A stretch of DNA of 64,000 bases from Actinomyces sp. Marseille-P3109. Lineage in GTDB: Bacteria > Actinomycetota > Actinomycetes > Actinomycetales > Actinomycetaceae. Location of the stretch: assembly GCF_900323545.1 (NCBI RefSeq), contig NZ_OOHN01000008.1, forward strand, positions 1,231,144 through 1,295,143, given 5' to 3'. The notes under the pieces were generated by a model. The model did not search any database, had not been told where the DNA came from, and saw nothing but the letters and a program-made list of their open reading frames with translations. Shown piece by piece: positions 28,382-31,290 of this stretch (its first letter is position 1; every line of letters begins with the position of its first letter). A program made the translations under genes and the position numbers.

Positions 28382-29587
28382 TTAGACGGTGGGTGAGTTC
28401 GGGGCCAGGCCCACCAGTGAGCGGAAGAAGTTGACGATGTCGTCCCACACGGCGCCGGACAGTCCCAGGAAGGTCTGTCCGCCCGGGGTGGCCATGAGGG
28501 CGATGGCCAGGGCGAAGGTGCCCGACAAAGCCAGGAGCAGCAGCCACCAGCCGGAGATGCGGGTGCGGTAGAGCTGGGAGACACCCTTGGCGTCGATGAG
28601 GCGGCCACCGACCTTGAGCCGGGTCAGGAAGGTCGAGGACATGCCGGCGCGCCCCTTGTCGAGGAACTCCAGCAGGGTGGCGTGCGTCCCCAGGGCGACG
28701 ATGATCTCGGCACCGGCCTCGTCGGCCATGAGCATGGCGATGTCCTCGCTGGTGCCGGTGGCGGCGAAGACGTGGTGGTCAACCTCGAGCTCCTCGACGC
28801 GGGCCAGCCCCGGGGCCCGCCCGTCGCGGTAGGCGTGGACAACGATCTCGGCGCCGCAGGTGAGCGCCTTGTCCGACACGGAGTCCATGTCGCCCACGAT
28901 CATGGCCGGCTTGAATCCGGCCTCCAGGACGGCATCGGCACCACCGTCGACGCCGATGATGACGGGCTTGTACTCGCGGATGTAGGGCTTGAGCGCCTGA
29001 AGGTCCTCCTTGTAGGAGTAGCCGCGCACGACGACCAGGACGTGCTTGCCGCTCATCTGCGTGGACAGCGTGGGCATGCCGACGCCGTTGAGGAGCAGGT
29101 CCCACTCGCCGCGCATGTACTCCATGGTGTTGGCGGCGAAGGCCTCGAGCTGGACGGCCAGCCCCTTCTGGGCCGCCTCCATGGCGTCTGAGACGGTCTC
29201 CTTGGTCTGGACCGAGCCCTCGGCGACGACCTGCTCCTTGCCCTCGATGCGCACGGTGCCGTCCTCGATGGCGATGCGCTGACCGTCGTGCAGACGCATA
29301 ACGTCGGGGCCCAGGTCGTCCACGAGCAGGATGCCGGCGTCGAGGAGGATTTCCGGCCCGAGGTTCGGGTATCGTCCGGAGATCGACGGGGAGGCGTTGA
29401 GAACCGCGGAGGGACCGCACTCGACCAGCGCCTCAGCGGCCACCCGGTCGATGTCGGTGTGGTCGATGATCGCGATCTCACCGGGCTGGAGGCGCTTGGT
29501 GAGCCTCTTGGTGCGCGCGTCAACACGGACGACGCCGCTGGGCTGCTCGGAGACGGACGCAGGCTTCCTGCGGAAGGGATTCCTCAC
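28382..29587 (-). CDS. steA: SteA, cytokinesis-associated thiamin-pyrophosphokinase-fold protein
   Basis: A 401-aa protein. The central domain has the pyrophosphokinase-like IGVDGGADAVLEAGFKP (about 216-232) and IVGDMDSVSD motifs; the C-terminus has one membrane helix (about 346-368) and an extracellular tail. It matches SteA of Corynebacterium (Rv1697 type), a division-septum protein rather than a vitamin enzyme. A GACAAT 7 nt before the GTG suggests that a leaderless promoter may also exist here; its start overlaps the recN stop by 4 nt. Confidence 0.87.
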   Translation of the reverse strand: MRNPFRRKPASVSEQPSGVVRVDARTKRLTKRLQPGEIAIIDHTDIDRVAAEALVECGPSAVLNASPSISGRYPNLGPEILLDAGILLVDDLGPDVMRLHDGQRIAIEDGTVRIEGKEQVVAEGSVQTKETVSDAMEAAQKGLAVQLEAFAANTMEYMRGEWDLLLNGVGMPTLSTQMSGKHVLVVVRGYSYKEDLQALKPYIREYKPVIIGVDGGADAVLEAGFKPAMIVGDMDSVSDKALTCGAEIVVHAYRDGRAPGLARVEELEVDHHVFAATGTSEDIAMLMADEAGAEIIVALGTHATLLEFLDKGRAGMSSTFLTRLKVGGRLIDAKGVSQLYRTRISGWWLLLLALSGTFALAIALMATPGGQTFLGLSGAVWDDIVNFFRSLVGLAPNSPTV

Positions 29588-31290
29588 GGCCCGGATTGTC
29601 CCACGACTGCTTCCTGGAGAAGCTCAGCGGCGTGCCGGACCGCGGCGTGAGAGTCCTCGTGGCCTGACAGCATTCTGGCCAGCTCGCGTTCTCTCTCCTG
29701 GCCTTCGACGACGAAGACCTGCGTGCGGGTGCGTCCCGACTCGAACTTTCTCACATCCTCCCGGGGCTCCTCAGGGGCCTCCCAGAGAGTGGGGTCGGGT
29801 GTGGAGCCGGCGGGGGCCTCCGTCTGGGGACCCGGGTCAGCGACCGTCTCCTTGCGCACCACGAGGTGGGTGTCCGCCCAGGCGGCCACCTGGGCCAGGT
29901 GCGTGACCACGACGACCTGGTGGTGACGCGCCAGGCGCGCCAGGCGCCGGCCGATCTCCCTGGCGGCGCGGCCGCCTCCGCACGCCCGTCGACCCACACC
30001 CGCACCCTCGTCTTCGATGAGATCGACGCCGGTGGGCCCGGGCTCGTTGAGCCGGTTCAGCGCGACGACGAGCCGCGCCCCCTTCATCTCCAGGCCCTCC
30101 AGCTCGGCGGTAACAGCCTGCTCCAGGTGCTCGGCGAGCAGCCGGCGCGCCCGGCTCAGCTCGTCGCCGGCGTCGGCCAGCTCCTCCTCCGCCGTGGCCA
30201 GCCGCTCGGCCAGGACGGTGGCGGTGTCCTGGGGGCCATCGAGCTCGGCCAGGCGCGCGGCGGCGCGCTCGCTCCAGGCCAGGAGGGCGTCGACGTCGTC
30301 GATCTGCTCCTGGGGCCCACCGATCTCCCGGCAGGCACGCGCCAGCTCGCCACGGCGGTCCTGGACGTGGGCGAGGCGGGCCGGGTCGGCGCTCAAGGAG
30401 GACAGGTACTCGCTCAACTCGGCGGCGATGTCGGCTGCGTCGATGCCCAGGCGCTGGGTGCGCGCGGCCAGCTCGGCCAGGGCGGGGTCGCGCTCGGACT
30501 CGGCCATGAGGCTGCGCTGCGCGTAGGCGATGAGTGAGACGACGTCGGGTGTCTGGCCGGTGGCGGACTCCTCGCCGCTCAGGGCGGTGCTGGCCCCGGT
30601 GGCGGCCCTGCGCAGGTCCTCGGCGTGGTCGAGCCGTTCGGCCTCTGCTGTCAGGTCCCGGTCCTCGCCGCTGCGGGGGTCGAGCTCTGCTAGGGCCTCG
30701 AGCCAGGTGCGCAGCTGCGCGACCTCGGCGTCCCGGGCCTGGGCCGAGGCCTGCCACTCCTCGAGCGCCTGGGCGGCCTGCCTGCGCGCCTGGTAGGCCT
30801 GGGAGTAGCGACGGCACAGGGCGGCATGCTCGGCCCCGCCCAGGGAGTCCAGGGCGGCGCGTTGGGCGGCGGCCGAACGCAGCCGCAGCTGGTCGGCCTG
30901 GCCGTGGACGGAGACCAGTCGGCCTCCCACCTCGCTGAGAACCGAGGCCGGAACGGATCGTCCTCCCAGGTAGGCGCGGGAGCGGCCGGTGGAGGGGACG
31001 GTGCGCGAGGCCAGGAGGAGGTCGTCGTCGAGGTCGGCCCCGGCCTCGAGGGCGCGGGCGGCGGCGCGCGAGTCGGGGTCGACGAGGAAGGCGCCCTCGA
31101 CCAGGCTGCGCTCGGAGCCCGTGCGCACGATGGTGGTCTCGGCGCGCTGGCCCAGCAGCAGCCCCAGGGAGGTCAGCACCATCGTCTTACCGGCGCCGGT
31201 CTCACCGGTCAGGGCGGTCAGGCCGCGGCTGAGGGGGAGATCGGCCTCCTCAATGACACCGAGGTCCTCGATGTGCAGGGACTCGATCAC
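29584..31290 (-). CDS. recN: RecN-like DNA repair ATPase, internally rearranged
   Basis: A 568-aa SMC-like protein with intact N-terminal Walker A (GETGAGKT, about 30-37), long coiled-coil arms and C-terminal VVVVTHLAQVAAWAD. The part that should hold the ABC signature (SGGELSR-like) is absent, and in its place the minus strand reads GVDLIEDEGAGVGRRACGGG. The opposite strand at 30005-30034 reads LVFDEIDAG, which is the RecN Walker B/D-loop. So a segment of about 65 bp (29968-30034) is inverted and the preceding part is lost, in frame. If real, the ATPase should be inactive. The GTG at 31290 overlaps the nadK stop (GTGA). Confidence 0.8.
   Translation of the reverse strand: MIESLHIEDLGVIEEADLPLSRGLTALTGETGAGKTMVLTSLGLLLGQRAETTIVRTGSERSLVEGAFLVDPDSRAAARALEAGADLDDDLLLASRTVPSTGRSRAYLGGRSVPASVLSEVGGRLVSVHGQADQLRLRSAAAQRAALDSLGGAEHAALCRRYSQAYQARRQAAQALEEWQASAQARDAEVAQLRTWLEALAELDPRSGEDRDLTAEAERLDHAEDLRRAATGASTALSGEESATGQTPDVVSLIAYAQRSLMAESERDPALAELAARTQRLGIDAADIAAELSEYLSSLSADPARLAHVQDRRGELARACREIGGPQEQIDDVDALLAWSERAAARLAELDGPQDTATVLAERLATAEEELADAGDELSRARRLLAEHLEQAVTAELEGLEMKGARLVVALNRLNEPGPTGVDLIEDEGAGVGRRACGGGRAAREIGRRLARLARHHQVVVVTHLAQVAAWADTHLVVRKETVADPGPQTEAPAGSTPDPTLWEAPEEPREDVRKFESGRTRTQVFVVEGQERERELARMLSGHEDSHAAVRHAAELLQEAVVGQSGP
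29968..30034 (+). other. Inverted recN Walker B segment
   Basis: Read on the plus strand, this segment encodes ASARPSTHTRTLVFDEIDAGG, i.e. the region of RecN that should be encoded on the minus strand. At its edges, the minus strand shows CACCGGCGTCGA (continuing from PTGVD) and GGCGGCCGC (continuing into GGRAAREIG); both are inverted homologies that could have joined the ends. Confidence 0.65.

Follow-up and report, generated by a model that had tools for sequence, protein, structure and literature searches.

An in-frame inversion with deletion in the recN frame of an Actinomyces assembly and its possible origins

The recN frame, its motifs and its neighbours

The window, i.e., the whole 64,000-nucleotide stretch analyzed from Actinomyces sp. 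Marseille-P3109, contains a recN frame on the minus strand (29584..31290). From the GTG start that we chose, which overlaps the NAD kinase stop, it encodes 568 amino acids that include neither the ABC signature nor Walker B. NAD kinase (NF002892) lies on one side and steA (NF040608) on the other, presumably the usual place of recN. Four-base overlaps occur with both neighbours, at 31287–31290 between the NAD kinase stop and the recN start and at 29584–29587 between the recN stop and the steA start. They suggest translational coupling of recN with NAD kinase and steA.

Read directly in the frame, the Walker A motif TGETGAGKT is intact at 31183..31209 (minus strand). Reading through the frame translation, we found no SGGELSR, the ABC signature, in agreement with a preliminary description of this locus that had noted the absence of any such motif. 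At recN, VFDEIDAG (Walker B) is encoded by the plus strand only: the minus-strand frame reads GVDLIEDEGAGVGRRACGGG, and LVFDEIDAGG appears in a plus-strand frame at this position, both as given in that description. In a whole-protein profile search, the frame scored 365.8 bits against TIGR00634, under the curated cut-off of 407.85, and the match halted at profile position 422 and restarted at 476. What the focal frame shares with this RecN family is Walker A, the middle part as far as profile position 422 and, from position 476 on, the C-terminal part, which retains VVTHLAQVAA; the signature motif and Walker B are lost and the score falls below the family cut-off. With the D. radiodurans RecN chain 4AD8, matching broke off at residue 377 and restarted at 430, and the matched stretches next to the gap were weak alone. 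Judged by the missing motifs, and as for ABC/SMC ATPases, the focal RecN would be predicted to lack ATP hydrolysis. We found no second recN in the genome, where the other profile matches reached 38.3, 23.8, and 19.6 bits.

Across the family, 200 of 213 genomes had a recN match above the TIGR00634 cut-off. We rechecked 15 low scorers, some of them from fragmented or incomplete assemblies; five passed with same-frame pieces summed and ten failed. In G035, the recN pieces (L131/L141) lie in different frames, and in G142 they are about 4 kb apart (L139/L134). The recN of G189 (L129, 2600–3150) has a break that resembles one-base insertions and, going by its sequence, looks like a sequencing error, perhaps a systematic one.

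Anatomy, junctions and age of the lesion

We searched the genus with the protein and found recN in 49 of 49 genomes. Nucleotide loci were returned for 29 of the 48 other genomes, and all 29 were aligned with minus strand 30150–29901; the remaining 19 genomes were compared via the protein search only. The left flank of the lesion was collinear in 29/29 loci, and collinearity with relatives holds to about 30023. The right flank was collinear from about 29976 in 28/29 loci, the exception being L041, which gave no right-flank match at E 1e-3. For the middle piece (window 30034–29964), the reverse-complement alignment proposed in the preliminary description yielded an opposite-strand match in all 29 loci. 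The unambiguous inverted core of 46 bp (29977..30022, minus strand) reverse-complements codons whose translation in relatives ends with TLVFDEIDA (Walker B), and an overlap of about 12 bp on each side of the core is also reverse complement of Walker B codons. When compared with 2953–2883 of L015, the closest relative, the inverted piece was identical at 65 of 71 bases.

L015 bases 2769–2955 (187 bp) correspond to 46 bp in the focal recN. The net loss is therefore 141 bp or 47 codons, and for this reason the reading frame survives. About 114 bp of unique sequence is lost, i.e., the region that holds SGGELSR in relatives (seen in 15/29 loci by a one-strand scan, the other 14 loci being stored reversed). 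An in-frame deletion plus an inversion of about 65 bp had been read from the focal DNA alone; the relatives uphold this anatomy and refine it to the core, the lost segment and the net loss given here. In a gap scan, the recN patch had an inverse score of 50 compared with a shuffle maximum of 13, and we therefore conclude that the inverse match is not due to chance.

The protein search matched the focal RecN in separate pieces in 48/48 other genus genomes, with the second piece beginning at query residue 438–440 in 47 of them and at 415 in G039. Some first pieces extend past the lesion, hence the protein search alone cannot map it. A scan of genome contigs gave named relatives that include Actinomyces oris S64C. 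The same minus-strand sequence in close relatives, named beforehand as the observation that would speak against a lesion, occurs in none of the 29 aligned loci. Given this absence and the matching in pieces throughout the genus, we rejected a lesion common to relatives. We also rejected a relocation of the lost segment: a search of the focal genome with the segment as it stands in L015 gave short edges only, of at most about 19 bases among the matches listed.

At junction 1 (30023..30034, minus strand), the 12 bp CACCGGCGTCGA belong both to the inverted piece and to the left flank that is collinear with relatives. The corresponding arms of L015 have 9 bp in common (CACCGGCGT) and mismatch thereafter; the event itself may have produced part of the 12-bp identity seen today. 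Among 200,000 inverse junctions drawn at random from G045, a fraction of 7.5e-5 had a homology of at least 9 bp, so the homology at junction 1 exceeds chance, although 9-bp inverted pairs at this distance are frequent in G045 DNA (348/1950 windows). At junction 2, placed at 29964..29976 (minus strand) by alignment with relatives, the inverted piece overlaps the collinear right flank around GGCGGCCGC. The homology there amounts to 3 to about 10 bp, a range set by the ancestral bases, and at least 3 bp of homology was found at 7% of random inverse junctions; taken alone, it proves little. The 12-bp inverted homology quoted in the preliminary description is the present state of junction 1. We displayed the junction comparison for 9 of the 11 closest relatives, a motif search having missed two. 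The intact region of a relative has a strong single-strand fold (z −2.56; 1/200 shuffles as good).

To date the lesion, we computed dN/dS of recN with the altered codons masked for the focal genome and 11 relatives. Values were 0.14–0.20 in focal pairs and 0.10–0.19 in 16 listed pairs without the focal genome. The corresponding ranges were 0.12–0.21 and 0.09–0.17 for nadK, and 0.07–0.16 and 0.06–0.13 for steA. The slightly raised focal recN values are matched by nadK and slightly by steA, and nothing points to prolonged decay. A long-standing pseudogene was rejected on these grounds. Because the remainder of recN is undecayed, the lesion is recent or unreal; the absent decay is equally compatible with an artefact and with a recent mutation.

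A proposed template switch and known systems

The lesion consists of three ordered fragments with a deletion and with homology at junction 1, from which we infer the copying order of a template switch. In this two-step, microhomology-guided switch within recN, synthesis would pass CACCGGCGT(CGA) and then jump to the inverted copy of that word at Walker B, some 185 bp downstream. Backward copying of about 46–70 bp would follow, until a return jump at a GGCGGC-like word let synthesis resume in the original direction. The outcome would be an inversion with an intervening deletion, in the order 1-3-2-4 of the four-point description, with net minus 141 bp and a reading frame kept by a one-in-three chance.

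The recN lesion is a known kind of event. Short-range template-switch mutation is described by the four-point model of Loytynoja and Goldman (PMC7954356). Such mutations, like recN, show three ordered fragments of which the middle one is reverse-complemented, and they are local; recN has in addition microhomology at junction 1. In the great apes, according to the passage cited, the majority patterns 1-4-3-2 and 3-2-1-4 yield inverted repeats, whereas 1-3-2-4 as in recN yields an inversion with a deletion (PMC7954356). Unlike the great-ape template switches, the recN case is bacterial, lies in a repair gene and is known from an assembly only. Template-switch mutations are also known from quasipalindromes of E. 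coli (PMC7202029), and yeast genes are known to undergo inversion between short inverted repeats (PMC8604942).

Chimeras formed in phi29 multiple displacement amplification also have an inverted piece, an intervening deletion and short junction homology, as found in recN, and in the cited part of the report more than 85% of these chimeras were inverted sequences with intervening deletions (PMC1855051). As described there, they join two segments, whereas recN has a second switch back to the original strand and lies within an assembled contig (PMC1855051). Nothing indicates amplification of the focal genome. By title, and among the matches listed, the literature on recN in Actinomyces held no account of such a lesion.

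Artefact or mutation, and what the lesion would mean

Two further anomalies of the same assembly, both outside the window, bear on the origin of the lesion. At C8:1415064, an exact tandem duplication of 41 bp splits proS, encoding type II prolyl-tRNA synthetase, into two frames (L242/L243, G000:C8:1414561–1416368); it is absent from the three relatives compared. We found no other type II prolyl-tRNA synthetase, and the first proS piece alone still scored above the family cut-off. The type I model matched the same two pieces and, weakly, a pair in a 705-aa frame (best 35.4 bits) that is probably another synthetase. Prolyl-tRNA synthetase is an essential enzyme, and the proS duplication is probably an assembly error. 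The other anomaly is a second inversion-deletion, found in the focal sequence only, at C8:1611987 within L294/L295 (G000:C8:1611738–1612336). Here, 49 bp, of which about 39 bp are inverted, stand in place of 201 bp, and the site is uninterrupted in G023 and in 10/10 other relatives searched.

Both anomalies were sought in part of the genome; the second patch emerged from a scan of 800 kb compared with G023, which left out 73 chain gaps. At C8:1463159, the same scan marked a patch that proved to be intergenic and self-complementary. It also gave a score of 18, a borderline value, at 1736426, and at 1638453 a tandem difference of 50 bp, from either an extra copy in G023 or a loss in the focal sequence. 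In the gap scan of 400 kb around recN, the recN patch was the sole local inversion among 67, 111, and 123 gaps relative to three relatives; of the three control pairs, two lacked any, and the third had a single weak case with a forward score above its inverse score. A cruder scan gave one short inverted match in the control pair G023/G021 (1944091) that is not in the gap-scan list.

The focal assembly does not look poor, and gene breakage is not clearly above the controls. Its 800 kb contained no N, and completeness was 99.98%. Broken genes, in counts that include spurious frames, numbered 8/186 and 7/171 in the focal genome compared with 9/178 in G021 and 0/167 in G023. Frameshift sites, again with spurious frames included and with the proS duplication not listed, numbered 6 in the focal genome and 11, 13, and 8 in G023, G021, and G045, respectively. 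Over 800 kb, 9/337 focal genes were flagged compared with 11/347 in the reverse test (spurious frames included). Exact tandem duplications gave 13 rows in the focal sequence and 11 in G023 and are, as such, not peculiar to the former.

The preliminary description had left the choice between template switching and an artefact. The anatomy fits, and between the two origins we lean slightly to the artefact, because a frameshifted proS is hardly tolerable for a cell and because the same assembly contains a second inversion-deletion patch. We thus give a slightly better than even chance to a switch that arose outside the living strain, in amplification, sequencing or assembly. The same switch may, at somewhat less than even chances, have occurred in vivo and recently, so that the sequenced strain would be a genuine recN null. 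Mutants in recN are viable in other bacteria. Junction homology and anatomy agree with known template switching, the pattern is rare in the focal genome by the 400-kb gap scan, gene-break counts are mostly as in other genomes, and G035 and G142 of the family also have a split or frame-changed recN. An origin in vivo has against it that proS of this assembly carries a break hardly compatible with cell survival, and that the rest of recN is without decay, though a recent event would leave none. It is unlikely, although the two focal-only patches in 800 kb point this way, that the lesion is real in a lineage prone to inversion-deletion template switches, in which recN loss and mutational pattern could be linked.

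A working RecN variant under selection, e.g., a DNA-bridging protein without ATPase, appears very improbable to us. Its frame is open over all 568 residues with pairwise dN/dS of 0.14–0.20 in the remainder, values that a recent origin explains. According to the cited parts of two studies, a Walker A mutant of D. radiodurans RecN lacks measurable ATPase yet retains DNA binding and bridging (PMC5442325), and E. coli RecN does not need ATP hydrolysis to bind DNA (PMC6856136). However, the lesion occurs in no aligned relative, a whole block rather than one residue is replaced (cf. the 4AD8 gap 377 to 430 with its weak stretches), and recN Walker A mutants mimic the null in cells according to the part of the D. 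radiodurans study cited (PMC5442325). Least credible of all is an invertible, regulated recN switch with both orientations in the population. Inverted homologies at the segment ends would suit it, but the arms lack conservation in the 9 relatives displayed; moreover, about 114 bp with the signature are gone and not found elsewhere in the assembly, hence flipping back cannot restore recN.

Automatic annotation may label this gene recN, but in the present sequence it is very probably dead. Since the proS lesion is hardly tolerable in a living cell, gene losses in this one assembly need checking against the reads. If the recN lesion is real, it would be a clean natural example, from a bacterium, of a repair gene destroyed through template switching, by an inversion-deletion that keeps the frame.
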